From positions 276,592-340,591 of the forward strand of contig CANLOV010000003.1 in assembly GCA_947492955.1 (NCBI GenBank): DNA of 64,000 bases, written 5' to 3'. The position numbers and the translations under genes were made by a program. The DNA is from an uncultured Cellulophaga sp. GTDB taxonomy: Bacteria > Bacteroidota > Bacteroidia > Flavobacteriales > Flavobacteriaceae. Below, piece after piece: positions 27,756 to 35,986 of the stretch (positions are counted from its first letter, which is position 1; the number at the start of each line of letters is the position of its first letter). Below the pieces are notes generated by a model. That model ran no database searches, was not told the origin of the DNA, and saw only the letters and a program-made list of their open reading frames with translations.

Positions 27756-28547
27756 CTACTTACTAAAATCAAAATTTAGCATCCGTTTCATAATACTATA
27801 CAATTCAGGGAAATCTCTCTTAAAAACAGCTGGAGTTTCTATATAATTTTCGACTGCAACGGCAAAAAACTCGTGTATATTAGTTCTTCCATAGGCTCTA
27901 AAATAAGTTGTAGTTTCTAACTTATTTAAAAAGTCTTTACTGGTATACATGCGTTTTAATTTTCGTAACCCGTGCATAAAAGACCAGCCCTGGAAAGATT
28001 GTTTATTTAACACATTAAAACTAATAGCATGCGCAAATTCGTGCACCGCTAAATTTACATTATCGTTAGGTATTTTAAATCCATGAAATAATTGTTCCGC
28101 AGAAAACACAACTATTTTTAAAGCAGGGTTGTATTCTCCATAATGATTTTGCCTGGTAAATACAGAATAATAATATGTTGGATAAATAATAATACGCTTT
28201 ATGGATAACACCATAAAATCTCGCATTCCCATAGTTAACATGGCAACAGTAGCACTTAATAACAATTTAATATCATCTTGCTTTTCTACATCTTCATGAA
28301 AAACAATTTTCTTACGGCTTCTAAATCGTAGGAGTCTTTTTTTAAATTTCTTCTTATTAGTATCAGATAATTTTCCGTAGAAAGGCAAATTAACACTAAT
28401 TAATGTCTCCTCCTCTTTAGTTAACGCTGGCAACTTTTTAAACGGATTTAAAAAAAATAAATCTAGCGCATAATAAATTATGTATCCTAAAAAAAAGACG
28501 ATAAAAAAAAGTGCTGCTAATGCAAATACTTGTTCGGTTGTAATCAT
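27756..28547 (-). CDS. Zinc-dependent peptidase, M90 (MtfA) family
   Basis: The 263-residue protein has an N-terminal membrane helix (about 8-30) and the zinc motif HEFAH in NLAVHEFAHAISFNVLNKQS, with a downstream Glu in NIHEFFAVAVENYIETP. MtfA relatives are zinc aminopeptidases that interact with the Mlc repressor in enterobacteria; that partner is not expected here. The 3' end faces the TonB receptor gene 27 bases away. Upstream on the same strand is argS, 29 bases off. Confidence 0.85.
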   Translation of the reverse strand: MITTEQVFALAALFFIVFFLGYIIYYALDLFFLNPFKKLPALTKEEETLISVNLPFYGKLSDTNKKKFKKRLLRFRSRKKIVFHEDVEKQDDIKLLLSATVAMLTMGMRDFMVLSIKRIIIYPTYYYSVFTRQNHYGEYNPALKIVVFSAEQLFHGFKIPNDNVNLAVHEFAHAISFNVLNKQSFQGWSFMHGLRKLKRMYTSKDFLNKLETTTYFRAYGRTNIHEFFAVAVENYIETPAVFKRDFPELYSIMKRMLNFDFSK

Positions 28548-30584: not shown

Positions 30585-30612
30585 TAAATTTTCAGTAATT
30601 ACTGAAAATTTA
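30585..30612. promoter_or_regulatory. Operator 1 for the GbsR-type regulator: 28-base perfect palindrome
   Basis: The sequence is a perfect inverted repeat with half-site TAAATTTTCAGTAA and its complement. The core CAG-N6-CTG recurs in operators 2 and 3. It ends 11 bases before a putative -7 box and covers the region where the -33 element of the regulator gene should lie, so binding would repress the regulator's own promoter. Confidence 0.75.
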
Positions 30613-30623
30613 GAAATTATTAT

Positions 30624-30631
30624 TATATTTG
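30624..30631 (+). promoter_or_regulatory. Putative -7 box (TATATTTG) for the GbsR-type regulator gene
   Basis: The octamer matches TAnnTTTG and ends 4 bases before the ATG, implying a very short or absent leader. It is 11 bases downstream of operator 1. Confidence 0.5.
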
Positions 30632-30635
30632 TTTC

Positions 30636-31139
30636 ATGGAATACAAAGAAGCTAAAGATAAGTTTATAAATACATGGGGCAGTTTAGGCTCTTTATGGGG
30701 TATTAACAAAGCTATGGCGCAAATACAATCCTTGCTTTTTATTTCTACCAAGCCTTTATCTATGGAAGAGATTATGGAAGAGTTACATATATCTAGAGGT
30801 AATACAAGCATGAATATTCGTCAGTTAATAGATTGGGGAATTGTTACTAAAGAATTAATTCCTGGTGAACGCAAAGAGTTTTTTACCACAGAGAAAGATG
30901 TACAAGAATTAGCCAGAATTGTAGCTAAAGAAAGAAGCAGAAGAGAAATAAAACCTGTTATAAAAGTTTTAGAAGAAGTCTCTACTATTAAGGATGACGG
31001 CACAGAAAAAACCAGAGAACTTATAAAACAAACAAAAGCATTACACGATTTAGCTGCAACGGCAGATAGCATGCTAAATAAAATGGTAAACCAAAAACAA
31101 AACTGGATAACTAAGTCTATCTTAAAATTTGTGAAATAA
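30636..31139 (+). CDS. GbsR/MarR-type transcriptional regulator
   Basis: The 167-residue protein shows the GbsR pattern: WGSLGSLWGINKAMAQIQSL, the winged helix-turn-helix MSMEEIMEEL-like stretch (PLSMEEIMEELHISRGNTSM, NIRQLIDWGIVTKELIPGER), and a C-terminal dimerisation helix. Family members respond to osmolytes or other small ligands. It stands first in a plus-strand run with a membrane protein, a desaturase, an epimerase and a methyltransferase. Palindromic sites lie before itself, the membrane protein and the desaturase. Confidence 0.88.
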   Translation: MEYKEAKDKFINTWGSLGSLWGINKAMAQIQSLLFISTKPLSMEEIMEELHISRGNTSMNIRQLIDWGIVTKELIPGERKEFFTTEKDVQELARIVAKERSRREIKPVIKVLEEVSTIKDDGTEKTRELIKQTKALHDLAATADSMLNKMVNQKQNWITKSILKFVK

Positions 31140-31152
31140 AAAAATTTAAATC

Positions 31153-31178
31153 AAACTTTCAGTATTTTCTGAAAGTTT
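31153..31178. promoter_or_regulatory. Operator 2 for the GbsR-type regulator
   Basis: Perfect 10-base arms (AAACTTTCAG and CTGAAAGTTT) flank a 6-base spacer TATTTT. It is in the 53-base gap between the regulator and the small membrane protein gene. Spacing and core match operator 1. Confidence 0.7.
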
Positions 31179-31192
31179 AAAATAATTAATCT

Positions 31193-31474
31193 ATGAAACA
31201 ACTCATAAAATCAACAAAAGTTATAAATATAATTGCTCTATGCTGTCTAATAATGGGAGCATATGGTCTTATCTTAACAGGAGCTCTTCAAGTATTAGCA
31301 GGAGTTATATTCTTTATCGCTTTTCCAAAAGACAAATACATCCATGTTTATTTAGGTTCTGTTACGTTATTCTTTATTTTTTGGAAGGTTGATACTTTTT
31401 TTGAATGGCAATTTATAATTCCAATACTACTAATGATTTATTTTACTTATATAATTCACTTTAAAAAAATTTAA
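31193..31474 (+). CDS. Small membrane protein
   Basis: The 93-residue protein has three to four hydrophobic segments (about 12-27, 29-45, 55-70, 72-90), with short charged links such as FPKDKYIH. It is not recognised. It lies between operators 2 and 3 and upstream of the desaturase, so it is probably part of the same membrane-lipid response. Confidence 0.75.
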   Translation: MKQLIKSTKVINIIALCCLIMGAYGLILTGALQVLAGVIFFIAFPKDKYIHVYLGSVTLFFIFWKVDTFFEWQFIIPILLMIYFTYIIHFKKI

Positions 31475-31477
31475 ACA

Positions 31478-31503
31478 ATACTTTCAATATTTTCTGAAAG
31501 TTT
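31478..31503. promoter_or_regulatory. Operator 3 for the GbsR-type regulator
   Basis: CTTTCA (31481-31486) and TGAAAG (31495-31500) form the arms of an imperfect copy of operator 2, with the same TATTTTCTGAAAGTTT right half. It starts 4 bases after the stop of the small membrane protein and ends 15 bases before the desaturase start. Confidence 0.65.
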
Positions 31504-31517
31504 AAAACACACAGACT

Positions 31518-32411
31518 ATGAACAAAAATTTAAAAACATCAGTTGGTAATATATATTTCTCATGGAAAAAAACGCTATGGTTATATTTTATAATGATACC
31601 TGTGTTATTTATTGATTTTTCATCTGTTACTATATATGATTATATCTTAATGTTTTGTCTTATGGTATTAACAGTAGGGATTGGTCATTCAGTAGGACTA
31701 CATAGAGGCATTATTCACAAATCTTATAAAACTTCAAAAACTTTTAGGAAAGTTAGTCTATATCTATTTGTTTTAACAGGACTAGGTAGCCCTTTAACTT
31801 GGTTAAAACAACATTATTATAGAGATTATTGGCAAAACAGAAATGACTGTCCAAAATATTTTCAGTACAAACACTCCTTATTTACTGACTATTTTTGGAA
31901 TCTTCATTTACAATTTGTTCCAAAAAAAATAAGTCTATATAGTATCCCAAAAGAAGACATAGAAGACATTACAATAGTATGGCTACATAAAACTTGGTAT
32001 ATATACTATTTTGGTTTTATGATTACAATCTATTTCCTTCTTGGCTTCAATAGTATGTTAATAGCTGCTTCTTTAAGAACCAGTACAATAATACTAGGAC
32101 ATTGGTATATTGGATATGCTTCTCACAAATATGGATATTCTAGATATAAAATAAAAAATGCAGATGAGAGCGGGTATAATGATGTTTTACTTGGACTTAT
32201 TTCTTTTGGAGAAGGCTTTCATAATAACCATCATTCGCACCCTGGCTCTGCAAAATTTTCAATGAAATGGTACGAAATGGATTTTGGTTGGGTATTAGTT
32301 TGGATACTAAATAAATTAAGATTAATAAGCAACATAAAAACTCACAAAAAAACATTAAAGGTTAATGCTGTAGTACACAAAAATATAAATTGGCAATTAC
32401 CTTGGAATTAA
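31518..32411 (+). CDS. Membrane fatty acid desaturase, divergent second histidine box
   Basis: The 297-residue integral membrane protein has at least four hydrophobic segments. Box 1 is in HSVGLHRGIIHKSYK (HRxxxH), and box 3 is in GEGFHNNHHSHPG (HxxHH). At the position of box 2 (usually HRxHH) the sequence is WLKQHYYRDYWQNRNDCP, keeping only one His. The two-iron centre may therefore differ, or other residues supply ligands. It would be expected to introduce a double bond or otherwise oxidise an acyl chain or lipid. Operator 3 lies directly upstream. Confidence 0.85.
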   Translation: MNKNLKTSVGNIYFSWKKTLWLYFIMIPVLFIDFSSVTIYDYILMFCLMVLTVGIGHSVGLHRGIIHKSYKTSKTFRKVSLYLFVLTGLGSPLTWLKQHYYRDYWQNRNDCPKYFQYKHSLFTDYFWNLHLQFVPKKISLYSIPKEDIEDITIVWLHKTWYIYYFGFMITIYFLLGFNSMLIAASLRTSTIILGHWYIGYASHKYGYSRYKIKNADESGYNDVLLGLISFGEGFHNNHHSHPGSAKFSMKWYEMDFGWVLVWILNKLRLISNIKTHKKTLKVNAVVHKNINWQLPWN

Positions 32412-32431: not shown

Positions 32432-33331
32432 ATGAACAAAATAATAATTGCAGGTGGTAGCGGCTTTTTAGGTAACGTTTTGGAAAACTATTTTACTAAA
32501 AAACAATACAATGTTATAATATTAACACGTAGCCCTAAACGAAAAAATGAGGTGTTTTGGGATGCTATTAATTTGGGAAAATGGACTAAAGAATTAGAGA
32601 ATGCTCAAATCCTGATTAATCTTACTGGAAAATCAGTTGATTGTCGGTATACAGAAAAAAACAAAAAAGAAATCTACAACTCTAGAATAAATGCTACTAA
32701 AGTACTTGGTACTGCTATAAACTTATGTAAAAGCCCACCAAATCTATGGCTTAACTCATCTACAGCAACCATATACAAACATTCTTTAGAGAAAGAAATG
32801 ACGGAAGAAAATGGAGATATAGGTAATGATTTTTCTATGAACATTGCTAAATCTTGGGAAAATACATTCTACAGCATAACTAATTCTAACACCAGAAAAA
32901 TAGCTTTGCGAACGTCTATTGTTTTAGGAAAAAATGGTGGAGCACTTACTCCTCTTAAAAAATTAACAAAATTAGGCTTAGGAGGAAAACAAGGCTCTGG
33001 AAAACAAAAAGTAAGCTGGATTCATGAATTAGATTTTGCCAGAGCTATACATTTTTTAATACAAAAAGATAATCTTAAAGGCAACTTTAACCTATCGGTT
33101 AAAAGCCCTACCAATAACAAAACCTTAATGAAAAAATTAAGGGAAATTTTAAAAAACCCTTTTGGTATTAATCATCCTATAGGATTATTAAAATTTGGAG
33201 CAAAACTTATCGGAACCGAAACAGAACTTGTTTTAAAAAGTAGAAATGTAATTCCAAAGCGATTATTAGACAACGGATTTAAATTTACGCACGATAATTT
33301 AGAATTAGCATTGATTGATTTACTTAAATAA
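32432..33331 (+). CDS. TIGR01777-type NAD-dependent epimerase/oxidoreductase
   Basis: The 299-residue protein begins with a Rossmann motif, IIIAGGSGFLGNVLENYF, and has the extended-SDR features LINLTGKSVDCRYTEKNK, WLNSSTATIYKHS and ALRTSIVLGKNGGAL, with the C-terminal domain DUF1731-like (NPFGINHPIGLLKFGAKLIG). The usual YxxxK is not evident (AKSWENTF region), as in this subfamily. The ATG at 32432 is preferred because the upstream in-frame start overlaps the desaturase gene and adds no conserved residues. Substrate is unknown. Confidence 0.87.
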   Translation: MNKIIIAGGSGFLGNVLENYFTKKQYNVIILTRSPKRKNEVFWDAINLGKWTKELENAQILINLTGKSVDCRYTEKNKKEIYNSRINATKVLGTAINLCKSPPNLWLNSSTATIYKHSLEKEMTEENGDIGNDFSMNIAKSWENTFYSITNSNTRKIALRTSIVLGKNGGALTPLKKLTKLGLGGKQGSGKQKVSWIHELDFARAIHFLIQKDNLKGNFNLSVKSPTNNKTLMKKLREILKNPFGINHPIGLLKFGAKLIGTETELVLKSRNVIPKRLLDNGFKFTHDNLELALIDLLK

Positions 33332-33337
33332 AATATC

Positions 33338-34213
33338 ATGAAAACCACAACAATCACTTTTCAAGAAAAACTAGAAAAAACTAAACTAGAAATGGTAGAT
33401 TTCTATAATGGTGCTACCGAAGATTATAAGTACTGGAGCAAAGACTTTAATATGCATTTTGGGTATTTTAATTTATTTAAAACAAACCTGTTTAAAAGAG
33501 ATACTATGCTTAATGAAATGAACAATCAGGTTTTAAAAAGATTAGAGCTACCACAAAACAAAGCTCTCTTAGCAGATTTAGGTTGTGGTATGGGTGGCGC
33601 TATGCGTTACATGTTAAAAAAGAAGAAAAAATTAGCAGCCTTTGGAGTTACCTTATCCGATTTTCAGGTTAAAAAAGGAAACGAATTATTAAAAAATTAC
33701 AATGGAACAATCGTAAAAGAAAATTACAATAATACTTCGTTCTCTTCTGAAATGTTTAATGCTGCTATAGCTATTGAAAGTTTTTGTCATTCTGGTCACA
33801 GCGAAAAATCATTTAAAGAAGCGTACAGAATATTAAAACCTAATGGAAAATTTGTAATTGCCGATGCTTTTCTAAAAAAAGAAGAAACAGAACTTTGTTA
33901 TGGGGGAAATTTAGCTTACCAAAAATTGTGTAACCATTGGAGCTTAGAAAAATTAGGAAATATAAATACAGTAGTACAACAACTAAAAAAACAAGGGTTT
34001 AAGAAAGTAATAATAGAAGATATTTCTTTTAGAGTTGCTCCATCCGTATTACATGTTCCTTTTGCTATCATTGGGTTTATTTTTAAAGGATTACTCGGTT
34101 ATAATTCTTTAAAACAAGAAAGTTTACATAACTTAAAAGGTTCTTTTTATGCACTCCTATCTGGTTTACATATGCGAAGTTTTGGATATTATATAGTTAC
34201 TTGCACTAAATAA
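33338..34213 (+). CDS. SAM-dependent methyltransferase
   Basis: The 291-residue protein has the class I SAM-binding motif LLADLGCGMGGAMRYMLKKK, followed by VTLSDFQVKKG and the post-motif AIAIESFCHSGHSEKSFKEA, ERILKPNGKF-like AYRILKPNGKFVIAD. The early region FYNGATEDYKYWSKDFNMHF with FGYF is like that of sterol/tocopherol and fatty-acid-type C-methyltransferases. It follows the epimerase by 6 bases in the lipid-related operon, so a lipid or isoprenoid substrate is plausible but inferred. Confidence 0.87.
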   Translation: MKTTTITFQEKLEKTKLEMVDFYNGATEDYKYWSKDFNMHFGYFNLFKTNLFKRDTMLNEMNNQVLKRLELPQNKALLADLGCGMGGAMRYMLKKKKKLAAFGVTLSDFQVKKGNELLKNYNGTIVKENYNNTSFSSEMFNAAIAIESFCHSGHSEKSFKEAYRILKPNGKFVIADAFLKKEETELCYGGNLAYQKLCNHWSLEKLGNINTVVQQLKKQGFKKVIIEDISFRVAPSVLHVPFAIIGFIFKGLLGYNSLKQESLHNLKGSFYALLSGLHMRSFGYYIVTCTK

Positions 34214-34354: not shown

Positions 34355-34362
34355 TATATTTG
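34355..34362 (+). promoter_or_regulatory. Putative -7 box (TATATTTG) for the ECF sigma gene
   Basis: The octamer matches TAnnTTTG, 16 bases before the ATG. Confidence 0.45.
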
Positions 34363-34378
34363 ATTTAGTAAATACACT

Positions 34379-34933
34379 ATGAGCAAACACCGATTAAATC
34401 CAGATACATGGATAGATTTATATGCAGATTACCTTTTTAACTATGCTGTATCTAGAGTTAATGATGCAGAAATTGCTAAGGATTTAGTACAAGAAACTTT
34501 CTTTGCTGGATTAAAATCTGCTAAAAACTTTAAAGGTGATGCTGCTGAACGTACATGGCTTATTGCTATATTAAAACGAAAAGTAATAGACCATTACAGA
34601 AAAATAAACTCTAATAAGGGTAAAGCCGAAGTTCGTATGAACTATAGCGCAGGAAGTGATTCTGAAGGAGACTGGTTAGAAGAACAAGTTGCAGACCCAT
34701 TTAGTAAACTAGAAAATAGTGCTATTGAAAATGAAGAATTAGGTTTAGCCATACAAAGTTGCCTATCAAAATTACCTAAAAAACAAAACCTAGTATTTAC
34801 CATGAAAACTATTCAAGGAATAAATACAGAAGATATTTGTAATGAGTTAGATATTAACCCGTCTAACCTGTGGGTAATGATTCATAGAGCACGAACTTCT
34901 TTGATGGATTGCCTTAATCAAAATTGGTTTTAA
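34379..34933 (+). CDS. ECF-type RNA polymerase sigma factor
   Basis: The 184-residue protein has region 2 (YLFNYAVSRVNDAEIAKDLV, QETFFAGLKSAKNF) and region 4 (SKLPKKQNLVFTMKTIQGIN, ICNELDINPSNLWVMIHRAR). Its gene starts 165 bases after the methyltransferase. A TATATTTG box (34355-34362) lies 16 bases upstream, so it may have its own promoter. It is paired with a small zinc-finger protein 2 bases later. Confidence 0.92.
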   Translation: MSKHRLNPDTWIDLYADYLFNYAVSRVNDAEIAKDLVQETFFAGLKSAKNFKGDAAERTWLIAILKRKVIDHYRKINSNKGKAEVRMNYSAGSDSEGDWLEEQVADPFSKLENSAIENEELGLAIQSCLSKLPKKQNLVFTMKTIQGINTEDICNELDINPSNLWVMIHRARTSLMDCLNQNWF

Positions 34934-34935
34934 AT

Positions 34936-35169
34936 ATGATTTCTTGCGAAAAAGCAAAACACCTTTGCGATAAAAGTCAGTATAACGAATCTTCTTTATG
35001 GGAAAGAATAAAGCTTTCTATTCACCTATACACCTGTAAAGTATGTTCTAAATACAGTAAAAAAAATTCGAAACTTACAAGTTTGTGTGAACAAGCTAAT
35101 ATGTTTAATTTATCTGAAGCAGACAAAGCCGAAATGAAAAAAGTGTTTGATCAAGAAAATATTAAATAA
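34936..35169 (+). CDS. Small zinc-finger (ZAS-type) anti-sigma protein
   Basis: The 77-residue soluble protein contains HLYTCKVC, the HxxxCxxC zinc motif of anti-sigma (ZAS) domains, with an additional upstream Cys (ISCEKAKHLC). It has no transmembrane helix, so it would bind the sigma factor in the cytosol, possibly as a redox or metal sensor. The ATG at 34936 follows the sigma stop by 2 bases. Its 3' end overlaps the converging UbiA-like gene by 8 bases. Confidence 0.82.
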   Translation: MISCEKAKHLCDKSQYNESSLWERIKLSIHLYTCKVCSKYSKKNSKLTSLCEQANMFNLSEADKAEMKKVFDQENIK

Positions 35170-35986
35170 AATAAGATAACCCTAGTATTACAGCATACCA
35201 CATAATAGGTATTGCTTCTACCCAAAAAGAAGCAAAGTATTTCTTTTTTGCATTTCCTGTCTCCAACATTAACATACCAAAAGTTAAAAATAAAATACCC
35301 TTACTTAAGGCATCTAAAATACTTACATGGTCTTTTAAAAATGTAATAAAGTAAAATGCCACAGTTATAAAAGCTCCAAATATTTTAGTTTTTGTTGCCC
35401 CATAGCGTTGTGGTATAGTTCGCAGTTCTGGCGCATCATACTGTAAATCTCTTATCTCAAAAGGTATTAATAATACCAATACCAATATAAAACGTTGTAT
35501 AGCTTCTACTATAACATCCCAATAAACAATATCTTTAGCTGCTATAACTGGTAAAATTACGGTGGCACCAGACCATACTAATGCTACAATAAAAACTTTT
35601 AAGCCTCCTAAGCTTCTTAAGTTTTTTGCCTTAGGTAAAATTGGCAACGTATATAAACCAACATATAATACCAAACCAATAATTACTAACCATGTGTTGT
35701 ATGTTAAAAACCAACCATAGTAAAGTGCAATAGCTAAAGCAATAAAACTTACAAATTGTATATTCTTATGGTATTTATTGGCAACTAAAATATATTTTTT
35801 TGCCTCTACTCCATATTTAATAAAATTATAACTAGCTATAGTCCCAAAAAACAGAAAATAAGCCAAATTTTTATCCATAGATATTTCTAACAGATAAGTA
35901 GAAATATAGGCTAATGAATATACAGATAAGGCTACGTGTATACTTGCGTCAATATAAAAATCAAAAAACTTTTTAAGTAGGCTCAC
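35162..35986 (-). CDS. UbiA-like membrane prenyltransferase family protein
   Basis: The 274-residue protein has about eight transmembrane helices. A motif like the second Asp-rich motif of UbiA enzymes is seen in FEIRDLQYDAPELRTIPQRY (RDxxxD then TxPxxxG). The first motif (NxxxDxxxD) is degenerate, reduced to ASYNFIKYGVEAKKY. It may be a divergent prenyltransferase or a non-catalytic relative. It converges on the zinc-finger gene. Confidence 0.65.
   Translation of the reverse strand: MSLLKKFFDFYIDASIHVALSVYSLAYISTYLLEISMDKNLAYFLFFGTIASYNFIKYGVEAKKYILVANKYHKNIQFVSFIALAIALYYGWFLTYNTWLVIIGLVLYVGLYTLPILPKAKNLRSLGGLKVFIVALVWSGATVILPVIAAKDIVYWDVIVEAIQRFILVLVLLIPFEIRDLQYDAPELRTIPQRYGATKTKIFGAFITVAFYFITFLKDHVSILDALSKGILFLTFGMLMLETGNAKKKYFASFWVEAIPIMWYAVILGLSYFI

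Follow-up and report, generated by a model that had tools for sequence, protein, structure and literature searches.

GbsR-type repressors of cytochrome bd genes have been described in Alishewanella sp. WH16-1 (CydE) and in Chromobacterium (CioR), each encoded within its own operon (PMC6096048, PMC11837568). The DNase I footprint of CydE, TATTTCAGAAATTTCTGAAAGTTCA, contains TTTCA-N8-TGAAA followed by GTT (PMC6096048); a second CydE site is unrelated to it in sequence, and the reported inducer is sulfate (PMC6096048, PMC11837568). Two B. subtilis members of the MarR-type GbsR subfamily, GbsR and OpcR, have choline and glycine betaine targets and an aromatic cage. OpcR has its operator over the -35 region, while GbsR is a roadblock further downstream (PMC7396694), and the half-sites of GbsR are 4 bp apart. 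GbsR proteins outside the osmostress group are reported to lack the choline cage, and a survey of the GbsR proteins found "no consistent picture" of targets for the Bacteroidetes branch (PMC6207618). Our literature searches found no papers on GbsR with Flavobacterium or on DUF2071 with TIGR01777.

A GbsR-type regulator and its operon in Cellulophaga

The window is the whole stretch of DNA analysed here, 64,000 nucleotides from an uncultured Cellulophaga sp. The features that concern us are as follows, by position in the window.

30586..30611, no strand: operator O1 (site S1), AAATTTTCAGTAATTACTGAAAATTT; core 30590-30607, a perfect palindrome
30624..30631, + strand: -7 promoter element of the regulator, TATATTTG, a TAnnTTTG at fixed distance from O1
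30636..31139, + strand: GbsR/MarR-type regulator, 167 aa (Pfam MarR_2, PDB 1ku9)
31153..31178, no strand: operator O2 (S2), AAACTTTCAGTATTTTCTGAAAGTTT; core 31157-31174, between the regulator and the first target
31193..31474, + strand: small membrane protein of 93 aa (cluster c9), of no known family
31478..31503, no strand: operator O3 (S3), ATACTTTCAATATTTTCTGAAAGTTT; core 31482-31499, before the desaturase
31518..32411, + strand: fatty acid desaturase family protein, 297 aa (Pfam FA_desaturase, 1.2e-13)
32432..33331, + strand: TIGR01777 family oxidoreductase, 299 aa (epimerase fold plus DUF1731; 265 bits, cut-off 207)
33338..34213, + strand: SAM-dependent methyltransferase, 291 aa, predicted from sequence
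34355..34362, + strand: -7 element TATATTTG before an ECF sigma gene, a match to the same box

The regulator matches Pfam MarR_2 at 5.7e-8. The closest solved structure by profile is MJ223 (PDB 1KU9), matched over nearly its full length (E 7e-25, profile positions 3-152), although MJ223 is archaeal. By these matches the regulator fits the GbsR subfamily, whose members are MJ223-like proteins of about 150-180 aa with an N-terminal winged helix and a C-terminal dimerisation part, and the relationship to MJ223 supports the GbsR type that an earlier note on this DNA had proposed. Against the NCBIfam model of the choline regulator CudC it reached 54 bits, far below the curated cut-off of 218; by this score it is a family relative and not CudC itself.

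Like CydE and CioR, the regulator is encoded in the operon that it would control, and it belongs to the same subfamily as GbsR and OpcR of B. subtilis. However, neither cydAB nor cydDC adjoins it, the targets here are not cydAB, and an internal operator parts the regulator from its targets, unlike in the CydE and CioR operons. The three sites of the window share one core, in contrast to the two sites of CydE, and the core spacer is N8 rather than the 4 bp of B. subtilis GbsR. The choline and glycine betaine targets and the aromatic cage of the B. subtilis proteins count as a further difference.

Operator sites and their conservation

The earlier note placed matching palindromes before the regulator, the small membrane protein and the desaturase, and all three were located there. 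The S1 20-mer (TTTTCAGTAATTACTGAAAA, 30589-30608) precedes the regulator start at 30636, the S2 20-mer (CTTTCAGTATTTTCTGAAAG, 31156-31175) precedes the start of the 93-aa membrane protein at 31193, and the S3 20-mer (CTTTCAATATTTTCTGAAAG, 31481-31500), with one mismatch against S2, precedes the desaturase start at 31518; O2 and O3 each lie 18 nt 5' of the ATG of their gene. A search for CTTTCAGTATTTTCTGAAAG with up to 3 mismatches gave 2 matches, and 100 shuffles gave 0. When the 3.87-Mb genome was scanned for TTTCARTAWTTWCTGAAA with up to 2 mismatches, the places without a mismatch were S1, S2 and S3 only, and every other match carried 2 mismatches, at the frequency of a reversed-pattern control. 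An operator matrix built from 80 other loci, with the window left out, scored S1 at 27.5, S2 at 36.3 and S3 at 33.1; the rest of the window held no site above 4, and shuffles peaked at about 3. Further regulon members elsewhere in the genome were considered and rejected: the TTTCA-N8-TGAAA core occurs 19 times genome-wide against 26 for a control pattern (4 or 5 of the 19 being without flank scoring by the matrix), and the top non-local site among the scored loci reached 17.4, within an unrelated Fic-like gene. The strong sites found in the genome are these three only, and both matching operators and a regulon limited to the cluster are supported. It is almost certain that the adjacent GbsR/MarR regulator uses S1 to S3 as its operators, and the array very probably forms a genuine switch for a little-understood set of membrane-associated genes.

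A genome scan supplied the 80 related loci, mainly from Flavobacteriia with a few from Pedobacter, to which the window was added; the resulting 81 are not independent, as Winogradskyella, Aquimarina and Flavobacterium are over-represented. All 81 loci have an exact TTTCA-N8-TGAAA no more than 130 bp 5' of the regulator (O1), and all 81 have a second one, before the next gene, no more than 150 bp past the regulator's stop codon (O2); about 0.004 would be expected per 280 bp, and the background is 15 in 1.16 Mb. Core spacers other than 8 are nearly absent from these loci, and AAAC and GTTT flanks are likewise conserved. The core had been given earlier as CAG-N6-CTG. Because the base completing CAG or CTG varies in the 81-locus alignment, this definition was dropped and replaced by TTTCA-N8-TGAAA within AAAC...GTTT. 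Judged by its sequence, which the CydE footprint also contains, the operator is of a known, CydE-like kind.

Eighteen genomes of the genus were surveyed. Fourteen have the regulator, and the operator is present in all 14; the four without it (G004, G007, G008 and G014) have no operator, showing only 2-mismatch, chance-like matches or none. In a draw across the phylum, a relative of the regulator was found in 83 of 198 genomes. O1 is kept in most further Bacteroidota orthologues above about 200 bits, and locus L034 retains it at 52% GC. The orthologues L159 and L169 have no exact core nearby, and none of the more distant loci examined (L170-L175) has a site close to the gene. The subclade L028-L032 showed no O2 core behind the regulator, and two of its loci, L028 and L029, have their site some 790 bp 5' of the gene. 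A third operator is not unique to the window: the C. baltica group (L020-L023, L042) and Psychroserpens (L068, L069) also have one, located 16-18 nt 5' of the second target and after a small membrane gene.

The position of O2 follows the gene downstream of it. Its distance to the next start is 10-25 nt in 72 of the 81 loci, and the distance from the upstream stop ranges from 16 to 116 nt. The sequence TTTAA is found 12 to 8 nt upstream of the O2 core (31145-31149 in the window), with its T positions conserved at 95-99%, and this fixed spacing is seen before O2 and not before O1. DNA looping between O1 and O2 with helical phasing was considered and set aside, since Winogradskyella and the other genera are about 7 bp apart in this spacing.

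Target genes and the limits of the regulon

The genes behind O2 vary. Counts across the 80 related loci, which are approximate because they come from mechanical ORF calling and single-linkage clustering, were 40 for the TIGR01777 oxidoreductase, 40 for the methyltransferase, 34 for a pair of small membrane proteins (c0), 30 and 26 for membrane proteins c5 and c6, 25 for c7, 15 for DUF2071, 13 for c9 and 5 for the desaturase. Most downstream targets have no Pfam or NCBIfam match. A close relative of the TIGR01777 gene also occurs in G007 and G008, both without the regulator, and the targets are therefore not strictly tied to it. Going by this distribution, the downstream genes are a changing pool, in which operators are kept while targets swap freely.

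The earlier note saw here a membrane-lipid regulon that could respond to an acyl or an osmotic signal, with a desaturase, an epimerase and a methyltransferase under joint control. The gene called an epimerase is part of the operon; it is better named a TIGR01777 oxidoreductase (265 bits against a cut-off of 207), and its activity is a prediction. A lipid function is possible but rather unlikely. The operon does hold a desaturase and a methyltransferase, the latter weakly similar to small-molecule, phosphoethanolamine and cyclopropane-fatty-acid methyltransferases. However, the desaturase is found in only 5 of 80 relatives and, within the genus, in this genome alone (1 of 18), the methyltransferase is found in 40 of 80, and the other targets are mostly uncharacterised membrane proteins, TIGR01777, DUF2071 and similar; across relatives the operators stay and the targets change. 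An osmotic (choline) ligand is unlikely because the aromatic cage is reported absent outside the osmostress GbsR group (PMC6207618).

The -7 box at 34355-34362 is likely to be the 3' limit of the regulon. We considered the ECF sigma/anti-sigma pair behind it as regulon members and rejected this, since the sigma gene (34379-34933) has its own TATATTTG box, no operator was found before it by the matrix scan, and in L113 the pair is sited away from the regulator operon. An ECF sigma factor and a small protein resembling an anti-sigma factor make up the pair (34379-35169), which has a promoter box of its own and adjoins a membrane protein (35162-35986 in the window) and gcvP in many relatives. On the other side of the regulator, an MtfA-like M90 peptidase gene (27756-28547, Pfam 1.8e-25) is located 3' of argS.

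A predicted promoter at O1 and the proposed mode of repression

The -7 element of Bacteroidetes promoters is TAnnTTTG. In the window this box, TATATTTG at 30624-30631, ends 4 nt ahead of the regulator ATG, and a TAnnTTTG lies 33-35 bp past the O1 start in 79 of 81 loci. By consensus, O1 overlaps the -33 region of the regulator's own promoter in these 79 loci, and the CTG/TTG in its right half is the probable -33 element. The first palindrome thus lies on the expected -33 region, as the earlier note had it, and this placement supports autorepression as probable. In 70 of the 81 loci, 27-29 bp separate the operator from the regulator ATG; together with a -7 box 4 nt from the ATG, this constancy suggests that a leaderless or nearly leaderless regulator mRNA is conserved. 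At O2, a TAnnTTTG within +18 to +60 of the site start was found in 1 of 81 loci, which is about none, and S2 and S3 in the window have no recognisable promoter of their own. Because the box follows O1 and is absent at O2, the operon has one recognisable promoter, which carries O1, and O2 and O3 would lie within the transcribed region. A sigma-70 consensus scan gave matches at shuffle level, this consensus being uninformative for the phylum.

The DNA itself shows the sites, how well they are conserved, that they go with the regulator gene, and that a promoter box accompanies O1 but not O2; binding, repression, the roadblock and the ligand are inferred. We put at about three in four the probability that a GbsR-type, CydE-like repressor governs its own operon through occlusion at O1 and a roadblock at O2 and O3. 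A winged-helix repressor would act on its own operon through repeated TTTCA-N8-TGAAA operators. A dimer on O1 would mask the -33 part of the sole recognisable promoter and so repress transcription of the regulator itself, while a dimer on the promoterless O2, and here also on O3, 16-20 nt before the target start codons, would most likely block elongating RNA polymerase. Being inside the operon, the roadblock would shut the targets more tightly than the regulator. A cytoplasmic ligand would free the dimer from its operators. Both modes have precedent, since OpcR binds at -35 and GbsR acts as a roadblock in B. subtilis (PMC7396694). There, two separate proteins use the two modes; here, one protein is proposed at both kinds of site, and both known GbsR modes of repression are suggested within one operon.

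The roadblock model does not require the locking of O2 to the downstream start codon, and the conserved TTTAA 12 nt upstream of O2 lies outside its account. Alternatively, each target may have a promoter of its own, of a type that is not recognised, with O2 or O3 as its operator; O2 keeps a fixed spacing to the start codon, much as in the leaderless arrangement at O1, and a conserved TTTAA lies upstream. We consider this unlikely, as the stretch from +18 to +60 after the O2 start holds a TAnnTTTG in a single locus of the 81, compared with 79 at O1, and the O2 flanks are little conserved past +25. It is also quite unlikely that O2 and O3 act in RNA, as 5' hairpins before the start codon that tune mRNA stability or translation, with O1 the sole DNA operator. 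In its favour, S2 can fold into a stem of 10 bp (-10.2 kcal/mol), the position of O2 is locked to the next ATG, and some outer pairs of O2 switch from C-G to G-C (Olleya, Aquimarina, Dokdonia). However, the same core is present at O1, upstream of the -7 box, and it is invariant and not covarying; in 54 of the 81 O2 sites the pair that closes the loop is an A-C mismatch, the outer bases often do not pair, many O2 folds are weak (median -5.9 kcal/mol), and the CydE footprint is on DNA. That the palindromes serve a different regulator, or have arisen by chance or from a repeat element and have nothing to do with GbsR, is very improbable, because the sites come and go with the regulator gene within the genus, adjoin orthologues across two phyla and have a core identical to that of the CydE footprint.

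For the GbsR branch of the Bacteroidetes, these loci supply an operator that is defined, an operon layout that is fixed and a pool of targets that recurs, so that binding and ligand can be tested directly. None of the papers searched describes the two-level operon layout or the target set. In the window, the Cellulophaga baltica group and Psychroserpens, a small membrane gene has an operator on either side, and each of the two is followed by a start codon about 16-20 nt further on. We tentatively suggest a modular, phylum-wide regulon in which target cassettes keep or bring their own roadblock operator, and in which the whole array may be gated by a single conserved repressor and an ancient operator that proteobacterial CydE also has.

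Relatives of the regulator in Proteobacteria (up to 45% identity) were found by tblastn on plasmids. The exact core lies just 5' of the ATG of the cydE-type genes of Rhizobium (65% GC), Chelatococcus (72% GC), Phyllobacterium and Pseudoalteromonas, and these four genes precede cydD/cydC or cydA/cydB-like genes, the cydAB reading of L181 being from its translated sequence and not from a family search. The core upstream of Phyllobacterium cydE (L184) equals the S1 core in 18 of 18 bases. The same operator sequence has persisted in Bacteroidota and Pseudomonadota, while its target genes have changed. A palindrome that resembles it without being the same, with the halves TTTCTGT and ACAGAAA, is found in Methylobacterium, Cupriavidus, Burkholderia and Novosphingobium, and Cupriavidus has a one-mismatch core between the regulator and the next gene. 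In Novosphingobium and Cupriavidus, related GbsR genes lie ahead of DUF4166 and TIGR01777, and of SDR-DoxX and DCC. GbsR-type genes before TIGR01777/SDR, DUF4166, DoxX-like and DCC genes, with the variant palindrome TTTCTGT...ACAGAAA, were seen at four proteobacterial loci (L178, L180, L183 and L185), and point to an uncharacterised membrane-associated module common to the two phyla.
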